Assembly: GCF_001280015.1 (NCBI RefSeq)
Contig: NZ_LGDV01000051.1
Span: 62,001 to 126,000 of the forward strand
Reading direction: 5' to 3'
Length of the DNA stretch: 64,000 bases
Origin: Streptomyces sp. MMG1121
GTDB taxonomy: Bacteria; Actinomycetota; Actinomycetes; Streptomycetales; Streptomycetaceae
The number at the start of each line of letters is the position of its first letter. Position 1 is the first letter of the stretch. The notes under the pieces were generated by a model that worked only from the letters and a program-made list of their open reading frames with translations, did no database searches and was not told where the DNA came from. Both the position numbers and the translations under genes were made by a program. This document shows positions 36,006 through 64,000 of the stretch, one piece after another.

Positions 36006-36752
36006 GTGTCTCTGCACCGCTTCGCCTCGCCGGCCCCCGACGCCTCCGAAGTCCCCGACGCCCCACGAGCCGCTCTGGTCTGCTTCCCGCACGCGGGCGG
36101 CGGGGCGACGACGTTCGCTCCCTGGCGACGCCGACTCCCCGACCGGCTCGATCTGTACGCCTATGTGGCGCCCGGGCGTGAGGAACGCGGCAGGGAGGCG
36201 ACCCTGGGATCGGTCGCCGAACTCGTCGCGGACGCCCTGCCGGCCGTGCTGGCGCTTCCCGGACCGCTGGTCCTGCTCGGACACAGCTTCGGCGCCTGTC
36301 TGGCCTACGAGCTGACCCATCGGCTGACGGCGGAAGGGCGCCCGCCGGCCCATCTCGTCGTGCTCGCCGCCGGAGCGCCGGGTCCGACGACACCCCGGCC
36401 CGTCCGGGACGACCACGACATCGAGTTGCTGTGGAAGCGCCTCGGCGCGAACCCGGCGGGGCTCGGGCGCCCCGAGTTCCGGGAGAGGTTCTTTCCGCCG
36501 CTGCGCGCCGACCTCACCGCGCACGCGTCCTTCCGTCCGCCATCGAACCGGCCCCTGCTGACCACGCCGGTCACCGTGATGTACGGGGACGAGGACTCCG
36601 ATGTGACGGCCGACGCGGCAGCCACCTGGCGCGAGCTGTGCGCCGGACCGTTCCGCCTTACCGCGATACCGGGCGGGCACTTCTTTCCGCAGAACTCGAC
36701 AACTGCCACGATCGGCGCGCTCGTCCACGCTCTTGACGTCCAGTTCGGGTGA
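36006..36752 (+). CDS. Type II thioesterase of an NRPS cluster
   Basis: A 248-residue alpha/beta hydrolase of the TEII family, which clears wrongly loaded or stalled acyl groups from carrier proteins. Motifs: VCFPHAGGGATTFAPW near residue 22, the nucleophile elbow GHSFGA (Ser, about residue 88), the Asp in YGDEDSDV and the His in GGHFFP. It is first of a rightward group TEII, A-PCP, halogenase. GTG 36006 is the default start since frames upstream lack family similarity, but its ribosome site is weak. Because no NRPS protein in the window ends in a TE domain, this protein may also release the final product. Confidence 0.85.
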   Translation: MSLHRFASPAPDASEVPDAPRAALVCFPHAGGGATTFAPWRRRLPDRLDLYAYVAPGREERGREATLGSVAELVADALPAVLALPGPLVLLGHSFGACLAYELTHRLTAEGRPPAHLVVLAAGAPGPTTPRPVRDDHDIELLWKRLGANPAGLGRPEFRERFFPPLRADLTAHASFRPPSNRPLLTTPVTVMYGDEDSDVTADAAATWRELCAGPFRLTAIPGGHFFPQNSTTATIGALVHALDVQFG

Positions 36753-36803
36753 AATCGGTCATGTTCCGTCGCGGTCGCTGTGGCGGAATACGGAGACGCG
36801 CCC

Positions 36804-36832
36804 TTGATCGCTCGATTGACGGCCGATAAAGT
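36804..36832 (+). promoter_or_regulatory. Promoter upstream of the His A-PCP gene
   Basis: TTGATC (36804-36809), a 17-bp spacer, then TAAAGT (36827-36832), close to the consensus for the housekeeping sigma factor. It lies about 48 bases upstream of the ATG at 36880 in an AT-richer gap, so the A-PCP and halogenase genes probably have their own transcript. Confidence 0.6.
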
Positions 36833-36879
36833 GCCGGAGTCGAGAATTCACGGTAATCGCACTAGGGGGACGTGTTTCG

Positions 36880-38670
36880 ATGACATCCGACACACCGCGG
36901 ACCCTGCACCAGTTTTTCGAGGAGTGCGTACGGAAAGCTCCCGAAAACATCGCCCTGGAGTACGACGGAGAATGCATCGCCTACGGTGATCTCAATCGTC
37001 GGGCGAACAGACTGGCGCATTATCTGCGCGACACCGCCGGAGTCCGGCCGGACGATCCGGTGGCCATCCTGGTGCGGCACCCGCCGAGCGTGATCGTCGG
37101 CATGCTCGCCGTCCTCAAGGCCGGCGGCGCCTACCTCGCGCTGGATCCGGACAATCCGCCGGGTGTGACACAGCGGATCATCGAGAGCGTCGAGCCCCGG
37201 GCCGTACTGGTCGAGTCCTCGGCGGTGGCGGGCGCGGCCTTCTTCAGCGGCGAGCTGTTCGTCATGGACGTGATGAGCGCGGCCCTCGACACACCGGACA
37301 CCGATCCGGCCCCGGTGACGGCGTCCTCGGACCTCGCCTATGTGATCCACACGTCGGGCACGACGGGCACGCCCAAGGCCATCGCCGTCGAGCACCATGC
37401 GATCATCCGCACCCTGCACTGGCGCAACGCGTTCTACGGATTCGGCCCGGACGACACGACGCTCGCGATGCCGCGCCCCTCGTTCGACAGTTCCGTGGCG
37501 GACACCTTCTGCGCCCTCACCTCGGGTGCCCGTCTGCTCCTTCCGCTGCGGGACCGGATTACCGACCGGCGTTATCTCGTCGGTTTGATGGAGCAGCGCG
37601 AAATCTCCCATTTCCTCATCACGCCGGCCCTGTACCATCGCCTGCTCAGGGGTATGAGCCCGCAGACGACCAAAGCCCTGCGGAGCGTCACGATCGCCGG
37701 GGAATGGTTTACCTCAAGCCTTGTGCGGGAACATTTCTCGCGACTTCCGGACGTGAAACTCTTCAACGAATACGGACCGTCCGAGAATTCGGTGTGCTCC
37801 ACGGTTCATCCCCTCGCCGCGACGGACCGGAACGTGCTCATCGGAAAGCCGATCGACCACACCGAGGCCTTCGTGGTGGGCGAGGACGGAGAGCCACTGG
37901 GGCCGGGCGGCACGGGTGAACTCCTGCTCGCCGGGGCCAGGCTGGCCAGAGGCTATCTGGGCGATCCCGCACTGACCGCGGAGAAGTTCTTCGTGCCCGC
38001 CTCGCCCCGGTTCGGCGGACAGCGCGTCTACCGGACCGGGGACATCGTCCGGGTCTGCGAGGACGGCGATCTGCAGTTCGTCGAGCGCCGCGACCAGCAG
38101 GTGAAGATCCGCGGCCGGCGTGTGGAGCTGAGCCAGGTGGCCGAGGTGCTGACCAAGGACGACGCGGTCGACCACGTCCACCTCCTGCGCCGTGCCACCG
38201 ACTCGGCGACCCCCCGGCTGGTCGCCTTCGTCGTGGGCCCCACGGTGCGGGACATCGACCGGCTGCGCACGAGCGCGAAGGAGAACCTGCCGGACTACAT
38301 GGTCCCCTCGGCGATCATCCCGGTCGACGCCGTGCCCGTGACCGGCAACGGCAAGGTCGACGAAGCGGCCCTGGCCGCGCTGTACTCCGACGCCACCGAC
38401 CGGCCCGGGCCCACGCCCGAGGCGGCGACACCCGTCGAATCCGCGCTGCTCGCGATCTGGCAGAAGATCTTCGCCCCCCTCGGCGTCGGCCTCGACGACG
38501 ACTTCTTCGACCTCGGCGGCGACTCCCTCAGCGTGATGGATCTCGTGTCCGACGCGGAGGAGCGCCTCGGCATCCAGCTCGACAACTCGGACCCCTACAC
38601 GGCCCGGACCATTCGGAGCCTGGCGCTCCTCATCGAGAACCGACGCAGCAGCGAGGTGGGTATAGCGTGA
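36880..38670 (+). CDS. Free-standing NRPS A-PCP didomain, histidine-type code
   Basis: A 596-residue protein: adenylation domain (about 1-500; HTSGTTGTPKAIA, FNEYGPSENS, YRTGD, NGKVDE) and a PCP (about 515-590) with Ser549 in DLGGDSLS. By hand alignment to GrsA the specificity residues are D-S-A-L-T-A-E-V-C-K, very close to the histidine code DSELTAEVCK known from bacitracin synthetase. No C or TE domain is attached. Its stop overlaps the start of the halogenase gene (GTGA), so the two are translationally coupled. The simplest reading is that it loads histidine on its PCP for chlorination in trans, as with other PCP-bound amino-acid halogenases. Confidence 0.88.
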   Translation: MTSDTPRTLHQFFEECVRKAPENIALEYDGECIAYGDLNRRANRLAHYLRDTAGVRPDDPVAILVRHPPSVIVGMLAVLKAGGAYLALDPDNPPGVTQRIIESVEPRAVLVESSAVAGAAFFSGELFVMDVMSAALDTPDTDPAPVTASSDLAYVIHTSGTTGTPKAIAVEHHAIIRTLHWRNAFYGFGPDDTTLAMPRPSFDSSVADTFCALTSGARLLLPLRDRITDRRYLVGLMEQREISHFLITPALYHRLLRGMSPQTTKALRSVTIAGEWFTSSLVREHFSRLPDVKLFNEYGPSENSVCSTVHPLAATDRNVLIGKPIDHTEAFVVGEDGEPLGPGGTGELLLAGARLARGYLGDPALTAEKFFVPASPRFGGQRVYRTGDIVRVCEDGDLQFVERRDQQVKIRGRRVELSQVAEVLTKDDAVDHVHLLRRATDSATPRLVAFVVGPTVRDIDRLRTSAKENLPDYMVPSAIIPVDAVPVTGNGKVDEAALAALYSDATDRPGPTPEAATPVESALLAIWQKIFAPLGVGLDDDFFDLGGDSLSVMDLVSDAEERLGIQLDNSDPYTARTIRSLALLIENRRSSEVGIA

Positions 38671-40427
38671 GCGGACAGGGCGGTACTCATTCCATGTTCC
38701 CGGACGTCGACCACGACGTGGTCATCGCGGGCGGCGGACTGGCCGGGCTCTGCCTCGCCAAACAGCTCAAGGACGCCCACCCCGCGCTCAGCGTGCTCGT
38801 GTGCGAACGTGAACGTTCCCCCATCCCCCTGTCCGCGTTCAAGGTGGGCGAGTCGTCGGTCGAGGTCGGCGCGTACTACTTCGCCGCGGTCATCGGCCTG
38901 CGGGACTACCTGGAGGAGCACCAGCTGGAGAAGCTCGGGCTGCGCTACTTCTACGGCGACCGCCCCGACTTCCACCGCGAGTCCGAATTCGGCGTCAACC
39001 GGTTCCTGCCCGCCAAGTCCTACCAGCTCAACCGGGGCTCCCTGGAGGAGCACCTGCGCCTCGTCGTGGCCGGCGCGGGGGCCGAACTCACCCAGGGCGT
39101 CAGGGTCCTGGACATCGAGCTGGGCGAGCAGGAGGAGCCGCACCGGGTGACGTACCAGCCCGACGGCGAAGGCGACCGGCAGGCCACCACCGTCACCTGC
39201 CGCTGGGTCGTCGACGCCACCGGCCGCCACCGTCTGCTGCAACGCAAGCTCGGGCTCACCAAGCGGTATCCCAAGCCGCACAACTCGGTCTGGTTCCGGC
39301 TCGAAGGACGCCTCGACACGGACGAGTTGGTGGCGCCGGGCCACAACGTCTGGCACGACCGCGTGCACGAGCCGCGGTGGAACTCCACCAACCACTTCAT
39401 GTTCGAGGGCGGTTGGGTGTGGGCCATCCCGCTGGCCCCGAACCACACCAGCGTCGGCATCGTGGTGGCCGACGAACTCCATCCGGTGACGAAGTTCAAC
39501 CGGATCGAGAAGGCCATCGACTTCGTGGTCGAGCGCGTCCCCGGCTTCGATCCCGCCATCCGCAAGCTGCCGGTGCTCGACTTCCGGGTCCTGAAGAACT
39601 ACAGCCACTCCTCGCACCAGGTCTTCTCGCACGACCGCTGGGCGTGCGTCGGCGACGCCGCGGTCTTCGCGGACCCCTACTACTCGGTCGGCTCCAACCT
39701 GATCGGCTACGCCAACAGCTTCGTGACCGAGATGGTCGGCAGGGACCGGGCGAACGCGTTCCAGCCGGACTTCGTGCGCTACGCGAACCGGTGGTTCCTC
39801 TCGCTGGCCGAAGGACTCACCCAGAACATCCAGGGCTCCTACGCCTTCCACGACAATCCCGTGATCATGTCCCTGAAGACGATCTGGGACTACTACGTGG
39901 GGTGGTCGTTCTCCGACCCGCAGTTCTACGCGAAGACCTTCCTGGACGAGTCCGCGAGCACGACGCTCAGCGCTCTGGGCGCGCACGCGGTGTCGACCCA
40001 GGGCGCGGTGATGAACCTGTTCAAGGCCTGGTCGCGCAGCTACCGGGGTGTCTTCGAGTTCGACTACATCGACTACTTCGACGACCTGCCGACCCTGGCC
40101 CGCCTCTTCGTGCAGAACCTGCCCGCCGCCGACGGCGTGACGCCTGCCTTCGGCCCGGTGCTCGCGAGCATCCGTGACGGCATCGACCGCATCGAGGAGC
40201 TGGCCCACGTCATCTTCTACCTGGCCCTGGAGGACGCGCTGCCCGAGCACCTCGACTCCGTCCGCGCCCGTGGCTGGCTGAACGTGTCGGCGCTGAGCCT
40301 GGACCCGGACCGCTGGGAGAAGGACGGCCTGTTCACGCCGAAGAGCCGGCCCCGCCTCGCGGAGGTCGAGGCGCTCGAGGCGGAGATGCGCGGGCTGTAC
40401 CGGGCGGGGACGCCCGTCGAGTCGTAG
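38667..40427 (+). CDS. Flavin-dependent halogenase (probable PCP-bound histidine chlorinase)
   Basis: A 586-residue FADH2-dependent halogenase. It has the FAD motif GGGLAG (22-27), the KVGES segment with the active-site Lys59, the halogenase signature W250-V-W-A-I-P255, and CVGDAAVFADPYYSVGSN around residue 325. It is longer than tryptophan halogenases and resembles those acting on carrier-bound substrates. Coupled to the His-code A-PCP gene, it most likely chlorinates the imidazole ring of His-S-PCP. A flavin reductase is not encoded nearby. A GTG at 38667 is the start, overlapping the previous stop; ATG 38694 is an alternative. Strong terminator downstream. Confidence 0.88.
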   Translation: MSGQGGTHSMFPDVDHDVVIAGGGLAGLCLAKQLKDAHPALSVLVCERERSPIPLSAFKVGESSVEVGAYYFAAVIGLRDYLEEHQLEKLGLRYFYGDRPDFHRESEFGVNRFLPAKSYQLNRGSLEEHLRLVVAGAGAELTQGVRVLDIELGEQEEPHRVTYQPDGEGDRQATTVTCRWVVDATGRHRLLQRKLGLTKRYPKPHNSVWFRLEGRLDTDELVAPGHNVWHDRVHEPRWNSTNHFMFEGGWVWAIPLAPNHTSVGIVVADELHPVTKFNRIEKAIDFVVERVPGFDPAIRKLPVLDFRVLKNYSHSSHQVFSHDRWACVGDAAVFADPYYSVGSNLIGYANSFVTEMVGRDRANAFQPDFVRYANRWFLSLAEGLTQNIQGSYAFHDNPVIMSLKTIWDYYVGWSFSDPQFYAKTFLDESASTTLSALGAHAVSTQGAVMNLFKAWSRSYRGVFEFDYIDYFDDLPTLARLFVQNLPAADGVTPAFGPVLASIRDGIDRIEELAHVIFYLALEDALPEHLDSVRARGWLNVSALSLDPDRWEKDGLFTPKSRPRLAEVEALEAEMRGLYRAGTPVES

Positions 40428-40442
40428 ACCCCGCACCCTTGT

Positions 40443-40477
40443 GCGGCGGGTTCGCCCTCACGGGGTGAACCCGCCGC
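40443..40477. terminator. Bidirectional terminator after the halogenase gene
   Basis: GCGGCGGGTTC (40443-40453) pairs with GAACCCGCCGC (40467-40477) in a perfect 11-bp stem, between the convergent halogenase and antiporter genes. Confidence 0.85.
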
Positions 40478-40489
40478 CCCGCGTCCGCG

Positions 40490-41779
40490 TCAGTGACCGC
40501 CCGGAGCCGCCACGGACACCGGATCGGCCGAGGAGCGCGGGTCGCCGTCCGCCGCCCGCACCCGGCGGCACAGCACCAGCAGGGGCTGCGTCAGCAGCGT
40601 GGTGGCGAGCGCCATCAACACGAACACGGTGTAGAGCGGACCGCTCAACAACCCCGCCTGCAAACCGGCGTTGAGGGCGATCAGCTCGGTCAGCCCACGG
40701 GTGCTGAGCAGCACCCCGATGGTGAGCGAGGTCCGCCTGTCCAGCCGGCAGGCGCGCGCCGCGAGGGCACCGGAGCCCACCTTGGCGACGACGGCGAGCA
40801 CCGTCACACCGCCCAGGACGGCCACCGCGGTGCCCCCCAGCGCGCCGACGGACACGCTGCGGCCCGACACCACGAAGAAGAACGGCAGCAGCAGCGATCC
40901 GATGCCGTCCAGGGAGCGCACCAGCTCCGGGTCCAGGGTGCCGTCCGGCTCACGGGGCGTGACCACACCGGCGAGCAGCGCCCCGAAGATGACGTGCAGG
41001 CCGAGCGCGCTGGTGGCCCATGCGGCGGCGAAGGCGAACCCGATCAGCACCGCCAGCCGGGGCTGCGCGGCGACACCGGGCGAGCGCATGAGGCGGCGCA
41101 GCACCAGCCGGGCCGGACCGACCATCACGGCGACGAACACCAGGAGCAGGAACAGCCGCAACGGCAGGGACATCCCGGACCCGTCGCCGCTCTCCATGAT
41201 GGTGCCGAGCAAGACGGCCCACCCCACGACGTCGATGAGCCCGGCGGCCGAGACGGCGAGGACCCCGGGCACCGTGCCGGCCAGGCCGTTCTCCCGCACC
41301 ACGACGATCAGCACCGGAACGGCCGTGATCGACAGCGCGACGGCCAGGAAGAGGACCGAGCTCGCCGACATGTCACGGGGCACGCCCAGGTGCTCCAGGG
41401 GGCCGTGGAAGAGCAGCGCGGCGCCCGCGCCCACCAGCATCGGTACCGCGAAGGCCGCCGTCGCGATGGTGAGCGTCGCGCGGGACCTGCCGCGCAGCAG
41501 GTTCAGGTCCAGCTCGTATCCGACGACATACAGGAAGAGCACCAGGGAGACCTGGCTCAGTGCGGTCAGCATCGGTGCGATGGCCTGCGGGAACAGGGTG
41601 TCGCCGACGGCGGAGGGGAGTTGGGAGAGCAGACTGGGGCCGAGGGCGATGCCGGCGATCAACTGGCCGACGATGCTGGGCTGTCCGAGTTTCCGGGACA
41701 GCCACCCTCCGGCGTTGGCGGCTATGAGGATCACCGCCGACGCTCCGACCAGGTGGGTTACGGTCGCGTCCGGACTCAT
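40490..41779 (-). CDS. CPA2-type cation/proton antiporter
   Basis: A 429-residue membrane protein with about 12 hydrophobic helices. Family marks are GQLIAGIALGPSLL near residue 38, LFLYVVGYELDLNLL near 82, AVALSITAVPVLIVVV and GVLLSTRGLTELIAL. CPA2 members exchange Na+ or K+ for H+. Relatives occur in several antibiotic clusters, where they are thought to support export or pH balance. Its ATG (41779) overlaps the stop of the NRPS gene (ATGA), so it belongs to the cluster operon. It could be an exporter or accessory tolerance factor for the peptide. Confidence 0.85.
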   Translation of the reverse strand: MSPDATVTHLVGASAVILIAANAGGWLSRKLGQPSIVGQLIAGIALGPSLLSQLPSAVGDTLFPQAIAPMLTALSQVSLVLFLYVVGYELDLNLLRGRSRATLTIATAAFAVPMLVGAGAALLFHGPLEHLGVPRDMSASSVLFLAVALSITAVPVLIVVVRENGLAGTVPGVLAVSAAGLIDVVGWAVLLGTIMESGDGSGMSLPLRLFLLLVFVAVMVGPARLVLRRLMRSPGVAAQPRLAVLIGFAFAAAWATSALGLHVIFGALLAGVVTPREPDGTLDPELVRSLDGIGSLLLPFFFVVSGRSVSVGALGGTAVAVLGGVTVLAVVAKVGSGALAARACRLDRRTSLTIGVLLSTRGLTELIALNAGLQAGLLSGPLYTVFVLMALATTLLTQPLLVLCRRVRAADGDPRSSADPVSVAAPGGH

Positions 41780-44700
41780 GTGTTCCTCCCGTTGCCTGTG
41801 CCGTGCGCGATGGGCGTGCCGGAGGGCGATCGTCGGTGCGGGAACGGTTCCCGGGGCCGTGCGAAGGAGCTGAGCGCCCCGTCGAGCCCGTGCCGTAGGG
41901 CCTCGGCCGCGCGCTGCCCGGCTGTGCCCGCGTCCGCTTCGACGCGCAACACCCGGCGGCCGGGCCCGCTCGTCCCGAGCAGGGTCACGACCAGCGGTAC
42001 GCCGGTCGCGGCCGGGGCGACGGCCTGTGACGCCACGAGCACCCCGGGCAGTCCTCGGGCCGGGGCCCCCGTTCTGACCGCCTCGTCCACCGCGACGACC
42101 AGGTCGGCCGGGGTCATCGCGGCCGCCGCGTCGACCGGGCAGTGCACGCGCGCCGCCGACCGCTGCACCTGAAGCTCTCCGGCACCGCCCGCGCCCGCCG
42201 TCACCAGGGCCACCGCGGAGGTCAGCACTACCAGTTCCTCGGCGGCCCGTCCCCCGCTGATCCGCGCGAGGGCCCGCACGGCTCCCTCGGACAGGGGCAG
42301 TTCGGTCGTGGTACGAGCGAACAGGGCGGCCAGTGGGGCGTCGGGGTCGCACAGCACGGCCCGAAGGACCTCGCGCAGCTGCTCGCCGATCCGGGCCGCA
42401 CTCCGCGGGGTGAACCGGTCGCGGCGGTAGCCGACGCGGATCTGGGTGTGCTGCCCGGAGCCGGGTTCCGGCAGCAGGAAGCCGAAGGAGAGGTCGAAGT
42501 CGCTGACCTCGGGCGGGTCGTCGAGATGGCGCGCGGTGCGCCGGCCGGAGCCCGTGCCGCCTTCGACGGTCGGTGACATCACCGTCTCCACCAGCACGTC
42601 GAACAGCGGATTTCGGCCCGCCTCCCGCGGCAGCGCGAGATCCTCCACGATCCGGTCGAACGGATACTCCTCGTGTTCCTGCACATCGAGGGCGGTCCGG
42701 CGGACCCGGTCGAGCAGGTCGGTGAAGGAGCCCGCCGGATCCAGGGCGGTGCGCAGCACGACCGTGTTGGCGAACAGCCCCACCTCCTCGGCCAGTTCGG
42801 GCAGCGAGCGTCCGGCCACCACCGTGCCGAGTGGCAGGTCGGTGACGCCCGTGAGCCGGTGCAGCAGCACGCGCGCCGCCGCGACACACACCATGAACGG
42901 CGTGGCGCCGGCCCGCAGGGCAAGGGCCCGCAGCCTCCGCGTCCCCTCCTCGTCCAGGGCCAGCCGGATCTGCCCGCCCGCGCCGCCCCGCACGTGTGCC
43001 GGCACATGGTCGGCGGGCAGCGGGGCGAGCGGAGGCAGATCGCCGAGCGTCCGCCGCCAATACCGTGCGTGGGCCTGCCCGCCCGCTCCGGCCAGTCGGG
43101 CGGCCAGCGCCCGCGTGTGCGCGCGGTAGCCCGGGAGCCCGGGCAGCGGGCACGGCTGCCCCGCCTCGAACGCCGCGGCCGCGGTGAGCAGGTCGCGCAG
43201 CAGCACGGAGTACGACCAGCCGTCGTTGACGCAGTGGTGGACGTTGAACAGCAGGACGGGCGGCCGTCCCCCGGCGCTCAGCTGGCGCAGCCGCACCAGC
43301 GGACCGGCGGCCAGGTCGAACCGCCACCTGGTCTCCTCGTCGTGCGCCCGGGCGAGCGCGGCCTCGAACCGCTCGGGGGGGACCCGCTCCACCAGCGGTT
43401 CGAGGTCCACCTCCGCGACCTCGTGGACGACCTGCCGCAGCACCGCGCCCGCGCCGTCCCGCGGCAGGTCGAAGGTGGTCCGCAGCGACTCGTGCCGGAC
43501 CGCCAGGGCCAGCAGCCCGGCACGCAGCGCCTCCTCGGACAGGGGGCGGTCGAGTTCGTAGGCCTCCACCATGTTGTAGGCACGCGACTCGCCCTCGTCC
43601 AGGGCCTCCAGGAGCCACATGCGGCGTTGTGCGTTGCTGGCCTCGGTCTCGGCGGGGAGGGGCTGCCGGGGGGGCCGCGGTGGGGCGGCGGACGGGGTCG
43701 TGCGGGCGCCGTGCAGGCCCCGCCGTACCGCCTCGGCCAGCGCCTCGGGGGTTCGCGCGGTGAAGATCTGCCGTACGGCCACACCGCATTCGGGTTCCGC
43801 CGCGCACAGGGCGCTGACGAGCTGTGCGGCGGTGAGGCTGTGGCCGCCGGCCGCGAAGAAGTCCTCGTCCGCGGCGCGCGGCGGCTGCCCGAACACGCTC
43901 TCCCAGGCCTGTGCGACGGTCCGCGACGCGCCGTCCTGCGGCGTCCACACGGCCCGCGGCCCGGGAGCCGGGGAGGCCGCGAGCGCGGTCCGGTCGATCT
44001 TGCCGTGCGGGGTCCGGGGCAGCGCGGGCACCTGGGTGAGCAGGGCGGGGACCATGTGCGCGGGCAGCTGATCGGCCAACCGGGCCCGTACGACGGCGGG
44101 TTCGAGGGGCGGGTCGGCCGTGTACCAGCCGGCCAGGGTCACGGCGTCCCGGCCGCCGGACCGGGGCAGTACCACCGCCTCCCGTACCCCGGCGAGCCGC
44201 ACCAGTGCCTGCTCCACCTCGCCGGGCTCCACACGGTGGCCGTGCAGCTGGACCTGACCGTCGATCCGGCCGAGGTAGTCCAGTGTGCCGTCGGCGTTCC
44301 AGCGGGCGAGGTCGCCCGTGCGGAAGCTGTGGCCGGCGCCGCCGACCGGGCAGGCGACGAACCGCCGGGCCGTGGCGTCGGGCGCGTTGAGATAGCCGGA
44401 CGCCACGCCCGGGCCGGCGACATAGATCTCGCCGGGGACCCCGACGGGCGCGAGCGTCCCCCAGGGCGTCACGAGCAGGACACCGAAGCCCGGCGAGGGG
44501 GAGCCGATGGGCACCGACATCAGCTCGGCGGCCCGGTCGCCGTCACAGACGTACGACACGCACTCCACGGTCGCCTCGCACGGGCCGTAGAGATTGACCA
44601 GCCTGCCGATCCTGAGCCGGCCCCGGGTGCGGGCCATCAGACCGCGCGGCACCGCGTCACCGCCGAGGATCAGATGGGACAGGGGCAGCCCGGCCGACGG

Positions 44701-51491: not shown

Positions 51492-51684
51492 CAGGATCTC
51501 CTCTGCCACAGGACGCCTCGGTCGAGGCGCCGGACGGGGGTGCGCCGAGCTTGGTGTGTGGACGGCTCCCGGGGCGCGATCGGCGTCCGGGGCCGGGCGG
51601 TCACAGGCCTGGGGTCCCGCGGGGCGACGCACGTCGCGACGCGGCCGTGGGCACCGGCACCGGGACGGCGAGGGTGAAGGCTCC

Positions 51685-51720
51685 GCCGGTGCCGGTGCCG
51701 GTGCCGGTGCCGGTGCCGGT
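51685..51720. repeat. Six tandem copies of GCCGGT
   Basis: A perfect hexamer repeat in the 281-bp gap between the RsgA-like and NRPS genes. It appears noncoding in the chosen gene models and is prone to slippage, so its length may vary between strains. Confidence 0.9.
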
Positions 51721-51772
51721 GACCGGAGTCCCGCCCGGGCCGGAGCCCGTCGCCCGGTGCGGCGGTGTGACC

Positions 51773-52867: not shown

Positions 52868-53300
52868 GGAAGTGCGGTCCTTTCGTCATTCACGATCGTG
52901 ACCTTCCCCGTCGAGAGTGCCATAGTGTCCAGGCGTCAGCCAAGTGTTTTCCGGGGAGATTTTACTGATGCTGCGCCAGGCTCGGCAGGGGACTGCCCAG
53001 TGATCTGTTCCGCTGCTATCCTGCAATCGTTGGCATGAATATACCTTCGCCGAACTGACGGCATCATGGCAGGTCAGAGCGGTTGTACAAGGAAAATTGC
53101 ATGCCGCATTCGGATTCGTCGACCGTTAATTCATCAACGTGCGGAGACGCTCGTTCACGGAATCTAGCAGCGCTCCGGAAAGCCTAGCGGAACGTGATTC
53201 ATGGTGGCGGGATCCAGTGTTTTGCGAGGCTTCCCGACGGGAAGTCAATCCTGGAATTCCGGTAAGATATTCCTTGCTCCGACCCCCTTGAGGACCCGTC
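52868..53300. promoter_or_regulatory. Divergent control region of the RsgA-like and NRPS genes
   Basis: 433 bases with clearly lower GC than the flanks, as expected for a two-way promoter region. Candidate elements include ATATACC near 53040 and TAAGAT near 53262 for the plus strand, but no full -35/-10 pair is convincing. The downstream start has GAGGAC about ten bases before it. No gene or long inverted repeat is seen. Confidence 0.45.
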
Positions 53301-55730
<2,430 letters not shown>

Positions 55731-55761: not shown

Positions 55762-55766
55762 CGCGC

Positions 55767-56804: not shown

Positions 56805-56845
56805 GGGGGTCTCCTGTTCCACGAAGGGGGTCTGGGCAAGGCCGG

Positions 56846-58423
56846 TCACGTGTCGAAGCGGAAGCCCTGGAAGGCGGGGGCGGGCAGGGGCGCGGCAGGC
56901 CCGGGCCCGGGTTTCCCGGTGATCCGGCCGAGTTGGGCGAGGACCCGGCCGGCGATCTGCTCGGCCGTGTCACGGTCGTAGCGCGCGGTGTCGTACTGCA
57001 GACACAGCCGCAGTCCCCGCGCGTGCTCGACGAACTGGAACGACAGCTCGAACATGCCCTGCCGCAGCAGGAAGGGGCCGCCGCGCAGCGAGATGCCTCC
57101 CGGCACGGCGGGGCCGGTGTCGATGTGCGGGTACAGCGCCACCCACACGTCGAAGAAGGGGCCGCGCCCCGGCGGCCGCGGCGGGTCGAGGGTCGCCACC
57201 AGCTCGTCGAAGGCGACCCCGCTGTGGTCGAGCGCGTCCGCCGTCCGTGCCGCCACATGCCGCACCAGAGCGGCCGGGTCGTCGCGACCGGTCAGGTCGA
57301 GCCGCAGCGGGACGGTCGCGACGTGGAAGCCCACGGCGCCGTCCCGGCCGAGCAGGGACCGGCGGTCCACGGGCGTGCCCAGACAGATGTCGTCGCTGCG
57401 CGTCAGCTCGCCCAGCGCACTCGCCACGGCCGCCGCGAGCGGGGCGAAGGTTCCGGCGTGCGCGCTCGCGGCCAGGCCCGGGAGCCGGTCCGTGAGGCGC
57501 TGATCGAGGTCCAGGGCGACCGTTTCCGTCACCGCGCCCGCCGGCCCCTGCCGGCGGCGGTCCACGGGGAGGAGCAGCGGCGTCGGCGGGGGCGTGAGCA
57601 GGTCACGCCAGTACGCCAGCGACTCCTCCCGCGACCGTGTGCTTCGCGGCGGACCGGGGGCGAACTCCGGTGCCGGAACGGGGAGTCCGCCGTACACCGT
57701 CACGAGTTCAGCCGCCAGGACCGTCAGCGACCGCCCGTCGCAGACCAGGTGATCGGCCGTGAGCAGCAGCGCCCAGGCGCCCTCGGCGAGCAGGAAGAGC
57801 GTGGCGCGGAAGAGCGGCCCTTCCGCGAGGTCGAAGGGGATCTCGACGCGGTCGTGGACGAGCGCCTCGAACTCCCGGTCGGCCAGGGCCTCGTCGCGCA
57901 GGTCGACCACGTCCAGCGGGGCGACCCGGTCGGTGACGACGGCCTGTGGACCGCCCTGCCGTTCTACGAACACCGTCCGCAGCGCCGTGTGGCGGACGGG
58001 GAGCGTGGCGACGGCCGCGGCGAGCCGCTGCGGGTCCGGCTGGCCCTGGCCCCGCAGCAGACACGGCACGGTGTACGCACCCTTCCCGCCGTGCGCGCCC
58101 TGGCGTGCCAGCCACAGCCAGCGGACCGACTCGGACACCGCCCCGTCCTGGACCGTCCCGGCATCGGACGATGCCCCGGAACGGGCGTCGGTGTCAGTGC
58201 CGCCCGCCTCGGTCAGGCGCGCCGCCAGCAGCTTCGGGGTGGCGCATTCGAGGATGTCGCGCACCCGCACCGGAACCCCGACCGCCGCCTCGACGGACAC
58301 GGCGAGGGACAGCGCGGACAGGCTGTGCCCGCCGGCCAGGTAGAAGTCCGTGTCATCACTCACGTACTCCAACTCCAGCGCCCGGGCGAACATCCGGCAC
58401 AGATCCTGGGTGAGGTCAGTCAT
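56846..58423 (-). CDS. NRPS PCP-C didomain
   Basis: A 525-residue protein. Residues 1-75: PCP with Ser34 in AGGHSLSA. Residues 95-510: condensation domain whose active-site motif is D224-H-L-V-C-D-G230; the first His of HHxxxDG is replaced by Asp, while the catalytic second His and the Asp-Gly are kept. DICLGTPVDRR and FDELVATLDPPR are typical of C domains. As it has no A domain, its PCP must be loaded in trans, most simply by the free-standing A domain at 59357-60988. It would then start the chain with pipecolate or proline. Divergent from the hydroxylase at 58545. Start ATG 58423. Confidence 0.87.
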   Translation of the reverse strand: MTDLTQDLCRMFARALELEYVSDDTDFYLAGGHSLSALSLAVSVEAAVGVPVRVRDILECATPKLLAARLTEAGGTDTDARSGASSDAGTVQDGAVSESVRWLWLARQGAHGGKGAYTVPCLLRGQGQPDPQRLAAAVATLPVRHTALRTVFVERQGGPQAVVTDRVAPLDVVDLRDEALADREFEALVHDRVEIPFDLAEGPLFRATLFLLAEGAWALLLTADHLVCDGRSLTVLAAELVTVYGGLPVPAPEFAPGPPRSTRSREESLAYWRDLLTPPPTPLLLPVDRRRQGPAGAVTETVALDLDQRLTDRLPGLAASAHAGTFAPLAAAVASALGELTRSDDICLGTPVDRRSLLGRDGAVGFHVATVPLRLDLTGRDDPAALVRHVAARTADALDHSGVAFDELVATLDPPRPPGRGPFFDVWVALYPHIDTGPAVPGGISLRGGPFLLRQGMFELSFQFVEHARGLRLCLQYDTARYDRDTAEQIAGRVLAQLGRITGKPGPGPAAPLPAPAFQGFRFDT

Positions 58424-58544
58424 GGTTCCCCTCCGTACGACAAAGGAATTCCGGGGATGGACAGTGGACATTGCGAGGGGCGGAAATTTTGGCGAGACTG
58501 GGTGTCCTGCGCATCAACTCGCCCATCGGTGAAGGGGAATTGCC

Positions 58545-59381
58545 ATGCTCAAGTCGCAGCGGCTTGCGGTATTGCCCATCGACTCCTACGACCTGGAATC
58601 CGAACTGACGCTCGTGGACCGGCACGACCCCGGAGGCGAGTACGACGCCTTCACCTTCGGCGCCTGGTCGGCCCATGTGCTGGCCAACGGCAGCGGTGCC
58701 GACTCCGACACCGCGTTCCGGCCGCACGGTGACAGCCTGACCCTCACCGAGCTGGGCAGGCAGCTGCCCGGCATCATGTCCCTGGTCACCGAACACTTCC
58801 CCTTGGAGCGGCTGCAGTGGGTCCGTGTCTTCAGTCTCAGCGACGGAATTCTCGCCCCGCACGTGGACTTTCTCGAATTCGCCGAACCCGGCACCAGGCT
58901 TCAAGTTCCGTTGCGCACCAGCGAGGAATCCCTGCATTCCGAGGGCGATCTCGTCTACCACCTCCGTCGTGGTGAGGTCTGGAAAATTCACACCACACAT
59001 CCTCATTCGGCTCGCAGCGCCGCCGGGCCCGCCCGGCTTTCCCTCTGCCTCGACTTCGCGGACGCCGACGAGCCCATCGAGATCCGCAACGACATTCCCG
59101 CGGCACACCCCGTTCGGCTGATCGACCTTCCCGCGGTGACCGACGCCGATGTCGAGGAACTCATCGGCTCCGGCCCTGAGCTGACCCCGGACACCCTGCG
59201 CACCGCCTTCCGCCGGTTCGCCGCCCTGCACTTCGAGCGGCGGGCCCCGGTCGTCGCCGCCTTCGACTGGTACCTGGAGGCCGCCCGGCGAACCGGGGAC
59301 GACGCCATGGCCGACAAGGTGCGGGCGTTCCGGACGTACTGCATCGGCAAGCGGGGCTACCGGGAGGCCTTCGACTGGTGA
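58545..59381 (+). CDS. Proline cis-3-hydroxylase / GetF-type hydroxylase
   Basis: A 278-residue Fe(II)/2-oxoglutarate oxygenase of the aspartyl/asparaginyl beta-hydroxylase fold. It lines up by eye with Streptomyces L-proline cis-3-hydroxylase: EYDAFTFGAWSAHVLANGSG, then LAPHVDFLEF (first His and Asp ligands), VYHLRRGEVWKIHTTHPHSA (last His ligand), and RLSLCLDFADAD with the cofactor Arg. In the GE81112 pathway the homologue GetF hydroxylates pipecolic acid at C3. Given the neighbouring cyclodeaminase and Pro/Pip-code A domain, free pipecolate is the likely substrate. AAGGGG lies six to nine bases before ATG 58545. The last 25 bases overlap the end of the convergent A-domain gene. Confidence 0.85.
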   Translation: MLKSQRLAVLPIDSYDLESELTLVDRHDPGGEYDAFTFGAWSAHVLANGSGADSDTAFRPHGDSLTLTELGRQLPGIMSLVTEHFPLERLQWVRVFSLSDGILAPHVDFLEFAEPGTRLQVPLRTSEESLHSEGDLVYHLRRGEVWKIHTTHPHSARSAAGPARLSLCLDFADADEPIEIRNDIPAAHPVRLIDLPAVTDADVEELIGSGPELTPDTLRTAFRRFAALHFERRAPVVAAFDWYLEAARRTGDDAMADKVRAFRTYCIGKRGYREAFDW

Positions 59382-60988
59382 AGGACCACGGCCAGTTGTC
59401 TGGCCCCCGGCCCCGGCAGGGCCCTGCGGTCGAGCTTGCCGTTGGCGGAGTACGGCAGCTCGTCCGTCACCCACCAGCGCACCGGCACCATGTAGTCCGG
59501 CAGAACGGCGAGCAGCGCCCGGCGCAACTCCTGGGCCGGCGGCGGATCCCCGGTCAGCGCCGCGTGCAGCTCCGTTCCGCCGTCGGCCCGCGCCACCCCG
59601 AACACCGCCGCGTCCTTGACCCCCGGAAGCCCGGTGAGCCGGGCCTCGGGCTCCCGGGGCTCCACCGCGTTGCCCCGGATCTTGATCAGGTCGTCGATCC
59701 GCCCCAGGAGCTGAAGCGTCCCGTCGGCGGACCGCCACACGCCCCGGTCGCGCGTGCGGTACAGCCGGGCCCCGGGGACGAAGGGGTCCGCCACGAACAC
59801 GGTCCGGGTCAGTTCGGGGTCGGTGTAGCCGCGCGCCACCCCCACCCCGCCGATGTACACCTCGCCGACCTCGCCGTCGGGCACCGGCGCCCGCTCCTCG
59901 TCCAGGATGCGGACGTAGGTGTTCCACACCAGGGACCCGACCGGCGGACGGGGTTCCAGATTCCCTCTGGCCGCGCTCACCGAGTGACTCGTCACCATGT
60001 GGTTCTCGGCCGGCCCGTAGTGGTTGTGCAGGGTGATCTCGGGCCGTCTGGTGAGCAGCCCCGCCAGCTCCGGCGTGACCCGCACCGTCTCGCCCGCGCT
60101 GATGATGTGCCGCAGGGCCGGGGCGTGTTCGAGCGTGACGGGCAGCGACATGAGGATGTCGATGAGGGACTGCGGAAAGTCCACCACCTCGACGCCCTCG
60201 CCGATGACGTAGTCCATCAGGTCCCGGGGATCCCGCCGTACTTCGGGGGACGGCACGTACAGGCAGCCGCCCGAGGCGAGCGTGGAGAAGATCTCCTGGA
60301 CCGACACGTCGAAGGTGAGCGGCGCGCACTGGAGCACCTTGCGCCGCCGGCCCAGACCGGATCCGTCCGCCTGCCAGGCCGCCAGGTTGGCCAGCGTCCG
60401 GTGTGTCTGCACGATGCCCTTCGGCGCGCCCGTCGAACCGGAAGTGAAGATCACGTAGGAGACGTCCTCGGGAGCGATCACCGGGCGGGCCGGCGGTGGA
60501 TCCGCGTACTCCACGAGCAGTCGGCTGAGCGTGGTCGTCGTGGTGTCCGGGCCCGGGACGGCCGGACCGGACACCCCGTCGTCCAGCACCATCAGGCGGG
60601 CGCTGCTGGTGCGGAAGATCTGCTCGATGCGCTCGCGCGGATAGGTCATGTCCACCGGCAGATAGGCCGCGCCGGCCCGCAGTGTCCCGAGCACCACCGC
60701 CGTGAAGCCGACCCCGGCGCGCCCGGCGATCAGCACGGTGTCCCCGGCGCCGACGCCGAACTCCCCGAGCAGACGGTCGGCGACGGTGTCCGCGAGCCGG
60801 TTCAGCTCCGCGTACGACACGGGCCGGCGGCCCTGCTCGCGGATCGCCCAGGCGTCGGGGCGGGCCGCGATCTCGCGGTCCACCAGGTCCAGGGCCGTAG
60901 CCGCGCCGATGTCCACGACCGGTCCCCGGTGGTGTCCCGGCAGGGCGTTCTCGAAGGGCGGGTGAGGAGGGTCGGTGTGCTGCGACAT
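59357..60988 (-). CDS. Free-standing NRPS adenylation domain, proline/pipecolate-type code
   Basis: A 543-residue A domain with no PCP. Core motifs: VIFTSGSTGAPKGIVQTHRT (A3), LTFDVSVQEIFS (A4), HNHYGPAENH (A5), YRTRDRGVW (A7, with TRD in place of TGD) and ANGKLDRRAL (A10). The hand-aligned code D-V-Q-D-I-A-H-M-V-K is close to the proline code DVQxIAHVVK; pipecolate-activating domains resemble this. Its ATG (60988) follows the cyclodeaminase stop by six bases, with GGAGGTG at the junction, so the two are coupled. It would load pipecolate (or proline) onto the PCP of the 56846-58423 protein. Confidence 0.88.
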   Translation of the reverse strand: MSQHTDPPHPPFENALPGHHRGPVVDIGAATALDLVDREIAARPDAWAIREQGRRPVSYAELNRLADTVADRLLGEFGVGAGDTVLIAGRAGVGFTAVVLGTLRAGAAYLPVDMTYPRERIEQIFRTSSARLMVLDDGVSGPAVPGPDTTTTTLSRLLVEYADPPPARPVIAPEDVSYVIFTSGSTGAPKGIVQTHRTLANLAAWQADGSGLGRRRKVLQCAPLTFDVSVQEIFSTLASGGCLYVPSPEVRRDPRDLMDYVIGEGVEVVDFPQSLIDILMSLPVTLEHAPALRHIISAGETVRVTPELAGLLTRRPEITLHNHYGPAENHMVTSHSVSAARGNLEPRPPVGSLVWNTYVRILDEERAPVPDGEVGEVYIGGVGVARGYTDPELTRTVFVADPFVPGARLYRTRDRGVWRSADGTLQLLGRIDDLIKIRGNAVEPREPEARLTGLPGVKDAAVFGVARADGGTELHAALTGDPPPAQELRRALLAVLPDYMVPVRWWVTDELPYSANGKLDRRALPGPGARQLAVVLHQSKASR

Positions 60989-60994
60989 GGGGGG

Positions 60995-62077
60995 TCACAC
61001 CTCCTGCGCGGGCCAGGACGCCCGCGCGACCGATTCGGGCAGGAACGAGTAGGGGTCCTGTGGGTCGTGGGCGGTCGCCTCGATGACGAGCCGGTGTCCG
61101 GCCCCCACCTGGAGGGCCAGTTCCTCCAGCAGCTCGACCATCACGAGGTCCTGGAGCGCCAGCCCGGTCGAGTCGTAGACGGTACGGCCGCCGCGCAGCT
61201 CCCGCTGCCGGTCGGGATCGCCCAGCAGCTCCGGGAGCGAGGGGCCGATCCCGGCCGGGGCGAGCCGCTGGCACTCGCCCTCGGCCATCGCCTGCTCGCG
61301 GTGGTCCGGGACGACGACCGCGTCCCGTAACAGGTCCAGCGGCAGTTCCGTCTTGCCGGGCATGTCCGAGCCGACCGCGTTGATGTGCACCCAGGGCCGC
61401 AGCGCGGAGCCCTGGATCACCGGTCCCTGCGCGGGGGCGACGGAGGTCGCCGTGCACAGGACGTCGGCGCGCTCCTCCACCTCCGCCAGGTCGGCCACCC
61501 GGACCAGCCCGTCGGGCACGCGCGCCCTGGCCGCGAACGTGCTCTCGGCCTGGATGTCGGTGTCGCACACCAGCACCTCGGTGAGCGGCAGCACCCGGGC
61601 CAGGGCGTGCAGTTGCGTGACCGCCTGGGCGCCGCAGCCGACGAGCCCGAGCACGCCGCTGCCGGGCCGGGCCAGTGCGCGCGTGGCCAGGGCCGACGCG
61701 GCCCCGGTCCGCACGGCCGTGGCGAACGTACCGTCCACGATCGCGCGCAGATGACCGGAGTCGACGTCGAAGGCGAGCAACGTCGAGAGAATCGTGGGCA
61801 GTTGGTTCTTGACCGGATTGTGCGGGTGATAGCCGACCATCTTCATGGACACGGTCGCTCCGTGGCGGACGGCCGGCATCCATTCCAGCAGACCCAGCCG
61901 GGGCGCGGTGAGCAGGAATCCGTCACGCGCCTTCATCTCGGCGGGAGCGGGTCCGGCCGAGGCGAGCACCCCGGTCAGCCGCTCGATCACCAGGTCGTAC
62001 AGCCGGCCGAGACCGACCTCGCTGACGACCGTGGCGACGGCCGCGGCATCGACTACATGGGTGGGTTCCGGTTTCAC
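60995..62077 (-). CDS. Ornithine/lysine cyclodeaminase (mu-crystallin family)
   Basis: A 360-residue NAD-dependent enzyme that converts L-lysine to L-pipecolate (or ornithine to proline). The Rossmann motif is GLVGCGAQAVTQLHAL (about residues 145-160), preceded by VDGTFATAVRTGAASALATR, with HINAVGSDMPGKTELP and DSTGLALQDL in the second half. The substrate cannot be read directly; the hydroxylase, the A-domain code and the likeness to GE81112 favour lysine. GTG 62077 with AGGAG upstream is preferred over the longer frame, whose first 56 residues are not family-like. It is followed at six bases by the A-domain gene. Confidence 0.87.
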   Translation of the reverse strand: MKPEPTHVVDAAAVATVVSEVGLGRLYDLVIERLTGVLASAGPAPAEMKARDGFLLTAPRLGLLEWMPAVRHGATVSMKMVGYHPHNPVKNQLPTILSTLLAFDVDSGHLRAIVDGTFATAVRTGAASALATRALARPGSGVLGLVGCGAQAVTQLHALARVLPLTEVLVCDTDIQAESTFAARARVPDGLVRVADLAEVEERADVLCTATSVAPAQGPVIQGSALRPWVHINAVGSDMPGKTELPLDLLRDAVVVPDHREQAMAEGECQRLAPAGIGPSLPELLGDPDRQRELRGGRTVYDSTGLALQDLVMVELLEELALQVGAGHRLVIEATAHDPQDPYSFLPESVARASWPAQEV

Positions 62078-62159
62078 GTCACTCTCCTGATGCCTCGTGT
62101 CCCGCTTCCGGAGGGCTCTCCGCCGGCGGCCCGGCACTCTTCGGGTGAACCGGCCGCGC

Positions 62160-63914
62160 TCAGGTGGCCGCGGCGTCGGCCGTCGGACCGTGCCAGGAGT
62201 CCCACAGCGCGGCGTAGGAGCCACCGGCACGGACCAGGTCGTCATGGCTGCCGCGCTCCGTGATCCGCCCGTCCTCCATGACGAGCACCGTGTCGGCGTC
62301 GTGCGCGGTGTGCAGCCGGTGGGCGATGGCGATGACGGTACGGCCGCGCAGCACGGCGGCCAGGGAACGCTCCAGATGCCGGGCCGCCCGGGGATCCAGC
62401 AGCGAGGTGGCCTCGTCGAGCACCAGCGTGTGCGGATCGGCGAGGACCAGCCGGGCGAGCGCCAGTTGCTGCGCCTGGCCGGGGGAGACCTCGTGGCCGC
62501 CGGAGCCCAGCTCGGTGCCGAGCCCGTCGGGCAGCTCGCGCACCCAGTCCCCGGCGTCCACCGCCTCGAGCGCGGCCCACACCCGCTCGTCCGCCGCCTC
62601 GGGATCCGCCAGCGTCACGTTGTCGCGCACCGTCCCCAGGAACACATGGTGCTCCTGGGTGACCAGCGCGACGTGCCGGCGCAGCTCCTCCAGGGGCAGT
62701 TCACCCACAGGTACGTCCCCGATGGTGACCGAGCCGTGGTGCGGCGCGTGGATCCCGGCGAGGATCCGGCCCAGCGTCGACTTGCCCGCTCCGGAGGGGC
62801 CGACGACGGCCACCCGCTCCCCGGCCCGCACCCGCAGTGTCACGTCGCGTACGACGTCGTGGCCCTCGCGGTAGGCGTAGCTGACCCCGTCCGCGGCGAT
62901 CCGCCGGTCTTCGGGCCGGCGCCCGCCGCCGGCGCTCTCGGGCACGGCGGCGCCCACCCCGATGAGCCGGGCCAGCGAGGCGTCGCCCACCTGCAACTCG
63001 TCCAGCCAGCCGAGCAGTTCGTCCAGCGGGTCGATCACCGCGCGGGTGTAGAGCGCCGCCGCGGTGACCTCCCCGAGGCTCACCCAGCCGTGGATGTAGA
63101 ACAGGCCTCCGCACAGCAGGGTGGAGGCCACCGGCAGGATGTAGCCGAAGTCCATCAGGGGGAACCACACGCTGCGCAGGAAGAGCGTGCCGCGCTCGGC
63201 CGCGTTGGAGCGCAGCACGTCCTCGTCGGTCCGCCGGATCCGCCGCTCGGCGAGGTCCAGCGCCTCGACCGTACGCGCGCCCGTCACGGTCTCGGCCAGC
63301 CCCTGCGTCAGGTCCGAGTAACTGGCGGCCTCCTTCAGATAGGCGGACCGCGCGCGCTTGAGGTACCAGCGCGTCGACCCCCAGATCACCGGCACGGCCA
63401 CCAGGCAGGGCAGCGCCATCAGCGGGCTGGTCACCAGCAGTGCGACGAAGGTGAGCAGGACCGACAGACCGGCCACGAGAATCGACGGGGCGCCCATCCG
63501 TACGGCGTTGGACAGGGCGTCCACGTCCCGGGTGCTGCGGGTGAGCAGGTCACCGGTGCCCGCCTTCTCGACGGCCGACAGCGGCAGCGCCAGGATCCGG
63601 CGGACGAAGCCCTCGCGGATGTCGGCCAGCACCTGTTCGCCGAGCCGGGCGCCGAGCAGCCTTGCGGTTCGGGTGAACACGCCCTGGGCCAGCAGCAGTC
63701 CGGCGATCACCACGACGATGACGTCCACCCGGGTGGTGGAGATGCCCTTCTCCACCTCCTCCACGAGATGGCCGAGCAGCGCAGGCACGACCAGCCCGCA
63801 CGCGGTGGCGAGGACGAACCAGAGGACCGTGCGGCCGAGCAGGCCGGAATGGCCCCGGACCAGACCTCGGACATGACGGCGCACTTCTGGCGCGTCGGCG
63901 ACCGGGAGACTCAC
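62160..63914 (-). CDS. ABC exporter half-transporter (membrane domain fused to ATPase)
   Basis: A 584-residue protein: six membrane helices in residues 25-310 (VLWFVLATACGLVVPALLG and others), then an ATPase with Walker A GPSGAGKST (about 377), Q-loop VTQEHHVF, Walker B HTLVLDEATS and H-loop AIAHR. The signature is VSPGQ rather than LSGGQ, a known but less common variant. It would export the peptide. GTG 63914 has AAGGAG six bases before. A second half-transporter probably lies just upstream, outside the window, as such genes usually come in pairs. Transcription then continues into the cyclodeaminase and A-domain genes. Confidence 0.88.
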   Translation of the reverse strand: MSLPVADAPEVRRHVRGLVRGHSGLLGRTVLWFVLATACGLVVPALLGHLVEEVEKGISTTRVDVIVVVIAGLLLAQGVFTRTARLLGARLGEQVLADIREGFVRRILALPLSAVEKAGTGDLLTRSTRDVDALSNAVRMGAPSILVAGLSVLLTFVALLVTSPLMALPCLVAVPVIWGSTRWYLKRARSAYLKEAASYSDLTQGLAETVTGARTVEALDLAERRIRRTDEDVLRSNAAERGTLFLRSVWFPLMDFGYILPVASTLLCGGLFYIHGWVSLGEVTAAALYTRAVIDPLDELLGWLDELQVGDASLARLIGVGAAVPESAGGGRRPEDRRIAADGVSYAYREGHDVVRDVTLRVRAGERVAVVGPSGAGKSTLGRILAGIHAPHHGSVTIGDVPVGELPLEELRRHVALVTQEHHVFLGTVRDNVTLADPEAADERVWAALEAVDAGDWVRELPDGLGTELGSGGHEVSPGQAQQLALARLVLADPHTLVLDEATSLLDPRAARHLERSLAAVLRGRTVIAIAHRLHTAHDADTVLVMEDGRITERGSHDDLVRAGGSYAALWDSWHGPTADAAAT

Positions 63915-63963
63915 TGGGCACTCCTTCGCGGGACGGCGATCGATCGGAGAAGGACGCGGTCGG

Positions 63964-64000
63964 TCATGTTCCGTCCCGCATGACGGTGGCGGCGTACTGG
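63964..64000 (-). CDS. 3' end of an upstream gene (partial), possibly the partner ABC protein
   Basis: On the minus strand the last codons read QYAATVMRDGT and end in TGA at 63964-63966, 49 bases before the ABC start. The gene lies mostly beyond the right edge. The short tail does not identify it, but position and strand suggest a partner half-transporter. Confidence 0.4.
   Translation of the reverse strand, partial: QYAATVMRDGT

Follow-up and report, generated by a model that had tools for sequence, protein, structure and literature searches.

A gene cluster of the GE81112 kind, probably a second subtype, with its own RsgA GTPase gene in Streptomyces sp. MMG1121

The window analysed here is a stretch of 64,000 nucleotides from Streptomyces sp. 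MMG1121 (contig NZ_LGDV01000051.1; G000:C50:62001-126000 in our genome set), taken from a genome of 9.45 Mb. It holds most of a non-ribosomal peptide synthetase (NRPS) gene cluster that spans about 35.9-72.2 kb, so that its right end lies beyond the window. A preliminary description of the same DNA had proposed a GE81112-like cluster, coding for a chlorinated and hydroxylated tetrapeptide, at 36006..64000. We had to move both limits, as position 36006 falls within a thioesterase gene and the cluster continues to about 72247. Our reading was extended past the window to the contig end at 144327, and genes found there are given in window numbering (64000 plus the position in the extension, L011). 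From the thioesterase TE1 (35892) at the left to a NodU-type carbamoyltransferase (end 72247) at the right we counted 21 intact genes. They are listed below, with A for adenylation, PCP for peptidyl carrier protein and C for condensation domains, and with the specificity code of each A domain.

35892-36752, plus strand: TE1, type II thioesterase beside the histidine cassette (PF00975, 139.2 bits; GHSFG motif)
36880-38670, plus strand: A-PCP didomain with the histidine-type code DSALTAEVCK (PF00501, PF00550; code via GrsA alignment)
38667-40427, plus strand: flavin-dependent halogenase (PF04820, 44.2 bits, cut-off 21; GGGLAG, and FADPYYSVG as the FxxPxxSxG motif)
40490-41791, minus strand: CPA2-type Na+/H+ antiporter (PF00999, 171.8 bits; in 5 of 9 get-type clusters, the window counted)
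41776-46257, minus strand: ACPC1, with N-terminal stub, A (DAYNIGLVEK), PCP, C and C-terminal extension (HHCVNDG and GGHS intact)
46693-47775, plus strand: VioC1, additional Fe(II)/2-oxoglutarate oxygenase, NapI/VioC-like (profile, fold, HxE...H)
47859-51491, minus strand: ATC2, with N-terminal stub, A (DASQVGEVAK), PCP and C (HHLIYDG and GGHS intact)
51773-52867, minus strand: RsgA-type 30S-dependent GTPase (TIGR00157, 146.3 bits, cut-off 100; G1, G3, G4 and zinc motifs)
53301-55730, plus strand: AT3, with N-terminal stub of condensation-domain-like predicted fold, A (DSSTTAEVGK) and PCP (profile, GrsA-aligned code, model)
55767-56849, minus strand: VioC2, GetI-like amino acid hydroxylase (TIGR03946, 405.8 bits, slightly below the 418.6 cut-off)
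56846-58471, minus strand: PCP-C didomain without an A domain (PF00550, PF00668)
58545-59381, plus strand: candidate GetF-type pipecolate hydroxylase (TIGR04531, 529.5 bits, cut-off 300; HVD motif)
59357-60988, minus strand: stand-alone A domain, code DVQDIAHMVK (profile search, code reading)
60995-62245, minus strand: ornithine/lysine cyclodeaminase (PF02423, 185.2 bits)
62160-63914, minus strand: ATP-binding cassette (ABC) exporter subunit (PF00664, PF00005)
63964 to beyond the window end: second ABC exporter gene, the partner subunit
about 65823-66530, beyond the window: TE3, thioesterase
66551-67348, beyond the window: TE2, thioesterase
67368-69080, beyond the window: CmlA-type diiron hydroxylase
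69465-70337, beyond the window: short-chain dehydrogenase/reductase (SDR)
70541-72247, beyond the window: NodU-type carbamoyltransferase

The cluster is real and, judged by its gene content, complete. A motif check found the activity motifs in place in the halogenase, both VioC-type enzymes, the GetF-type enzyme, CmlA, the PCPs and the C domains, and the condensation motif of PCP-C deviates (DHLVCDG in place of HHxxxDG). The start of ACPC1 is uncertain, with 46224 and 46257 among the possibilities; ATC2 starts at a GTG with AGGAG upstream. We rejected a reading of 47859-52889 as a single NRPS protein, since its upstream third is RsgA, on the same strand and in another frame. The enzymes named in the preliminary description are all there: a histidine-code A-PCP coupled to a halogenase, two VioC-family oxygenases, a GetF-type hydroxylase, a cyclodeaminase beside an A domain, A-PCP-C proteins, and transporters (the ABC exporter and the antiporter). 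It had overlooked RsgA; the carbamoyltransferase, the CmlA-type hydroxylase and a further two thioesterases escaped it because they lie beyond the window.

The halogenase is rare. At E<=1e-150 it occurs in 5 of 394 genomes sampled from the family and 4 of 392 sampled from the genus, counting the window's own genome in both, and a scan of GTDB contigs found 6 loci in 5 genomes; the relatives in Streptomyces are 82-88% identical. We compared nine clusters of the type of the GE81112 (get) cluster of Streptomyces sp. L-49973, the window counted, and sorted them into two types. Type I has six members (S. hirsutus, S. katrae, G248, G254, Streptomyces sp. H27-C3 and G442), of which the H27-C3 cluster is incomplete, with 18 kb compared. 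Type II has three: the window, S. actinomycinicus C41 and G681. Homologues of 20 of the 21 intact genes are found in G681 at 70-90% identity with order and orientation kept, and a gene set shared in this way is far beyond chance. S. katrae matches 16 of the 21 (45-83% by tblastn, with RsgA left out of the count). The trio of GetF-type hydroxylase, cyclodeaminase and stand-alone A domain is present in 8 of the 9 clusters; in the ninth, H27-C3, where we looked for the first two genes only, GetF lies on the cluster contig and the cyclodeaminase at the end of another contig.

Synteny also bears on whether the 36-72 kb stretch is really two neighbouring clusters, with the CmlA and carbamoyltransferase genes at the right not being members. 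The contig does carry another NRPS cluster at the right, from 74.3 kb. However, S. actinomycinicus and G681 keep NodU, SDR, CmlA and the exporter in synteny with the remainder, type I clusters do the same for NodU, SDR and the exporter, and the NRPS at 74.3 kb has no full counterpart in those clusters. We find a division into two clusters hardly credible, and the same synteny rules out the 74.3-kb NRPS as a member.

Domain profiles give three full C domains (ACPC1, ATC2 and PCP-C) and one terminal A-PCP (AT3), which points to four residues joined by three peptide bonds. PCP-C has no A domain of its own, and the stand-alone A domain presumably loads it; we infer that ACPC1 acts at residue 2 and ATC2 at residue 3. 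By comparison with a reference code, DSALTAEVCK is probably that of histidine; our literature search turned up no paper with the reference code. The histidine A-PCP and its own thioesterase would work off line, like NikP1/NikP2, with TE1 in a NikP2-like role. NikP1 and NikP2 are described as an A-PCP and a type II thioesterase that release free hydroxyhistidine for nikkomycin (PMC4147253). The residues of GE81112A are given as 3-hydroxypipecolate, 5-carbamoyloxy-4-hydroxynorvaline, histidine and 2-chloro-3-hydroxyhistidine (PMC10167690). The assembly logic described here matches this structure.

Stubs of about 200-250 amino acids stand ahead of the A domains in AT3 (53301-53990), ACPC1 and ATC2. 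Against the C-domain profile the matches are weak (ATC2 E 0.002, ACPC1 0.028, best shuffle 0.23), and in that search the AT3 stub and the C-terminus of ACPC1 did no better than shuffles. A model of the AT3 stub (pLDDT 83) matches condensation domains, at best with E 1.9e-10 and TMq 0.64, and the stub is predicted to fold like part of one.

The two types differ in how the assembly line is built. Type I has a single large NRPS (2.35 kaa), which in type II is split into ACPC1 and ATC2. VioC1 is in all three type II clusters and was found in none of the six type I clusters, of which H27-C3 is only partly covered. TE2 is an addition of type II relative to type I. The ATC2 code is DASQVGEVAK in 3/3 type II clusters; its equivalent in the five readable type I clusters is DAVLVGEVLK (1), DAAMVGEVVK (2) or DAALVGEVVK (2), and H27-C3 is cut there. 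The AT3 code is DSSTTAEVGK in all five VioC1-bearing clusters that have AT3 (the window, S. actinomycinicus C41 and C52, G681, and G254 C4) and DSATTAEVGK in 6/6 type I clusters, so that position 239 is Ser in the former and Ala in the latter. As these clusters are related, the association of VioC1 with the AT3 code may reflect a single historical event.

These differences decide how we weigh the possibility that GE81112 itself (A, B or B1) is the product, in which case VioC1 and the altered codes would be neutral or would have a minor task, for instance with the 2-aminohistidine found in B-type congeners. The core enzymes are all common to type I, the stand-alone A code DVQDIAHMVK is identical in all 8 clusters where we read it, several type I clusters also have the window's histidine A-PCP code, and the substitutions in the pocket of ACPC1 (DAYNLGLIEK in type I, DAYNIGLVEK in type II) are conservative ones. 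Against this stand the distribution of VioC1, an ATC2 pocket that differs at three positions, and the Ser for Ala change in AT3. We think it unlikely that the product is GE81112 itself, for which masses of 643-658 Da are reported (PMC5960728). The preliminary description had left the choice between GE81112 and a new congener open; gene content, module count and collinear clusters agree with its proposal, and the differences from type I make a congener the likelier product. We are fairly confident that this is a GE81112-type NRPS cluster of a second subtype, and that its product would be a tetrapeptide congener, chlorinated and hydroxylated, with the 30S subunit as its target.

The GetF-type enzyme has its HVD motif and keeps a later His in common with the solved L-proline cis-4-hydroxylase. 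VioC2, the candidate GetI-like citrulline/arginine hydroxylase, has OrfP as its best PDB match (E 6.8e-111) and is about 70% identical to the enzyme at the same place in type I clusters; near the substrate site it reads TDP (type II), where type I has SHP or AHP and OrfP has LDP. The model of VioC1 (pLDDT 85) finds NapI (6daw) as its best fold match, with 39-40% identity over the fold. Its facial triad HxE...H and the guanidine-binding Asp are present (WHNEDAFH, VHGR, IDPAF). At the guanidine site VioC1 has the Asp and Ala of NapI (Asp245, Ala247), and so carries Ala where VioC has Asp270 (positions as given in PMC10884159). From these NapI-like residues we expect a guanidine or 2-aminoimidazole amino acid as the substrate.

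The gene at 51773-52867 has an E of 3e-35 to a solved RsgA and shows the motifs TKAD, GASGVGKS and DTPG in that permuted order, together with the zinc motif CRFGDCTHQGEPGC. A frame at 51816-52901 on the plus strand was rejected as RsgA, having neither an NCBIfam nor a PDB match. RsgA is in 6/6 type I clusters and 1/3 type II clusters. The type I copies sit between the halogenase and AT3 and are 85-88% identical to the S. hirsutus copy; the window copy has AT3 and ATC2 as its neighbours and shares 44-45% identity with the type I copies. All nine genomes have at least two genes over the TIGR00157 cut-off: three in the window's genome, G248, S. katrae and H27-C3, four in G254 and G442, two in S. 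hirsutus (one in the cluster), and two each in S. actinomycinicus and G681 (none in the cluster). The fourth RsgA-type gene of G442, at G442:C2:134864-135550, lies outside its get-type cluster.

For a tree of RsgA we gathered 46 sequences and used 39, after dropping 6 duplicates and L073, a distant GTPase. The homologues were 20 of the 120 listed, and alignment A1 likewise took 20 of another 120 listed. The type I copies fall with a second RsgA found in Streptomyces genomes (99/100). For the window copy the tree shows a grouping with a database protein (93%) and, less well supported (90/96), with a set to which the G254 C4 copy belongs. A single clade for the cluster copies is rejected (p-AU 8.9e-38 with 8 rows, 1.6e-104 with 14 rows), with the caveat for both tree and test that the tree program warns of long branches. 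On this evidence, and under the same caveat, a single origin of the cluster RsgA genes is ruled out, and by its place in the tree the window copy is of a different RsgA lineage than the type I copies.

We propose that RsgA may be a self-protection gene for the producer's ribosomes. RsgA is described as binding h44 near h24 and h45 (PMC6912228), and GE81112 as binding at the h23/h24 tips, its hydroxypipecolate in contact with h44 and its third residue stacked on G693 (PMC11903750). Protection of the 30S subunit is plausible because RsgA works at h44 beside the GE81112 site. Our literature search, of limited depth, turned up no paper tying RsgA to GE81112, self-resistance or resistance genes; a table in one study of producer self-resistance does list rsgA among the translation genes scored (PMC9290621).

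Between SDR and the carbamoyltransferase, related clusters have a gene for a GNAT acetyltransferase. It gives a near full-length match in one frame in S. actinomycinicus C41, G681, S. hirsutus, S. katrae, G248 and G442, is cut by the end of the fetched stretch in G254, and was not seen in the 18 kb compared for H27-C3. We did not find an intact copy in the window cluster, where a 900-base search gave one short likeness at about 70.45-70.51 kb (18 residues, 50%, E 0.001). Within type II, the RsgA-bearing cluster has no intact GNAT gene and the two clusters without RsgA have one, which is a hint of alternative immunity from three cases only. Type I clusters hold both genes.

Put together, the route would run as follows. 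The cyclodeaminase would turn lysine into pipecolate, the GetF-type enzyme would hydroxylate it at position 3, and the stand-alone A domain would load the hydroxypipecolate onto PCP-C. The residue added by ACPC1 would come from citrulline or arginine; VioC2 would hydroxylate it and the NodU-type enzyme might carbamoylate it. ATC2 would add the third residue, with a pocket that differs from type I, and for this altered position VioC1 could provide a hydroxylated amino acid with a guanidine or 2-aminoimidazole group. Off line, the histidine A-PCP would load histidine, the halogenase and the CmlA-type oxygenase would modify it, and TE1 or TE2 would release it, after which AT3 could re-activate the freed chloro-hydroxyhistidine and add it as the last residue. 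The ABC pumps would export the peptide, and RsgA would protect the 30S subunits of the producer, or clear them, at h44 next to where GE81112 binds. The enzymes, domains, motifs and synteny behind this route are as described above; the route itself is our reconstruction from them.

There are several points that count against this picture. We drew the kinship with the L-49973 get cluster through type I clusters as stand-ins, we placed the A domains at positions 2 and 3 by codes and homology, and the substrate suggested for VioC1 comes from homology. The profile NF041363 (GntD, enduracididine beta-hydroxylase) scores VioC1 at 367.7 and VioC2 at 369.6 (cut-off 345); because it scores them alike and fails to separate them, the name GntD fixes no substrate. 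The two closest sister clusters, S. actinomycinicus C41 and G681, lack RsgA, and our comparisons did not find it in S. actinomycinicus C52 (95 kb) or G248 C2 (40 kb) either, so that it cannot be the sole immunity of the wider family.

The absence from the two sisters also fits RsgA as a passenger, a duplicated housekeeping-type gene that is in the cluster by chance and has no role in immunity. Each of the nine genomes has one or more RsgA genes away from the cluster (a single one in S. hirsutus, apart from its cluster copy), and the literature search described above fits a passenger as well. On the other side, two RsgA lineages occupy two different positions in collinear clusters, the type I copy has been kept in every type I cluster at high identity, and a further related NRPS cluster in G254 also holds RsgA. 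We consider the passenger explanation an even bet. A more ambitious idea is that RsgA has been recruited repeatedly, from different lineages, as an immunity factor of 30S-targeting tetrapeptides that clears or protects h44/h24, and that the product is a GE81112 congener whose third residue is new and is prepared by VioC1. We regard this combined idea as tentative and somewhat doubtful.

Several loci lie around this cluster or share parts of it. To the left of TE1, ArgG (34141-35607) is an extra argininosuccinate synthase of the E. coli type (PRK05370, 847 bits), 32% identical to the genome's second copy. A counterpart (93%) adjoins the cluster of G681 too, and in S. actinomycinicus C41 we did not see one. 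ArgG may supply arginine or citrulline chemistry; together with an F420-type oxidoreductase at 33140-34108 it is a candidate cluster gene. At 21926-26329 the window codes for a protein of 1467 amino acids with trypsin-like and nSTAND1 NTPase domains, possibly a defence or signalling protein. The second NRPS cluster, at 74295-82327 in window numbering, is cut by the contig end and has a protein of 2230 amino acids with two A domains, two carrier motifs and, as judged by eye, a methyltransferase-like insert; a luciferase-like monooxygenase follows, and an MFS exporter gene lies alongside.

The pair of histidine A-PCP and halogenase is found in other NRPS surroundings in S. actinomycinicus C52, G066 (a family relative) and Catenulispora pinistramenti, and for this reason it looks like a re-used chlorohistidine cassette. 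CmlA accompanies it in C. pinistramenti; the 40 kb compared in G066 gave no CmlA match. S. actinomycinicus C52 is a second chlorohistidine-type cluster in its strain, with VioC1 (70%), VioC2-like fragments and the codes DASQVGEVLK and DSSTTAEVGK. G254:C4 and G248:C2 are related clusters with VioC1 homologues (52%) and ACPC1/ATC2 homologues, and the stretches compared gave no match to the halogenase, GetF or the pipecolate A domain. G254:C4 further holds CmlA, AT3 and an RsgA 59% identical to that of the window; AT3 was not found in the 40 kb of G248 C2. These two are a further family, possibly with the same target.

GE81112 is described as a preclinical scaffold active on Gram-negative bacteria (PMC10269895, PMC10167690). 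A natural second subtype reveals which residues evolution varies, among them the residue that stacks on G693 in the published structure, and the making of analogues could draw on the additional oxygenase of this cluster and on its re-tuned A domains. The RsgA gene in the cluster makes producer immunity directly testable, and, if our proposal is true, its role would be target protection by a ribosome-assembly GTPase. Since the chlorohistidine cassette occurs in other NRPS surroundings, more chlorohistidine peptides can be sought.

Compared with known systems, the window RsgA resembles the housekeeping GTPase RsgA (YjeQ) in its GTPase and zinc motifs and its TIGR00157 score, but it is a cluster-borne extra copy that stands apart from both other RsgA types of its own genome. 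VioC1 differs from the arginine oxygenases NapI, VioC and OrfP in its setting, an NRPS cluster in which a GetI-like enzyme is already encoded. The closest clusters, S. actinomycinicus NZ_JAERRK010000004.1 (G394:C41) and G681:C2, have the shared genes in the same order and orientation, the same five A codes and VioC1 at 89-90% identity; unlike the window, they are without RsgA and have the GNAT acetyltransferase gene.

For the get cluster, we take GetL to be the halogenase. The S. katrae gene order seems to fit the letter spacing of F (hydroxylase), I (citrulline hydroxylase) and L (halogenase); by the same count RsgA would be getK and CmlA getN, so RsgA may already be among the published getA-N. 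GetF and GetI are named in the literature (PMC9271919, PMC10884159). Set against the get cluster, with type I clusters as its proxies, the window has a split NRPS, the additional VioC1 and TE2, CmlA at the other end, an RsgA of another lineage in another place, and a GNAT gene that we did not find intact. It appears to share with the get cluster the GetF-type pipecolate hydroxylase, the GetI-like hydroxylase, the halogenase with its histidine A-PCP, and the four-residue assembly. The cluster is new as a variant subtype of the GE81112 kind, and it is the RsgA link that most merits experimental work.

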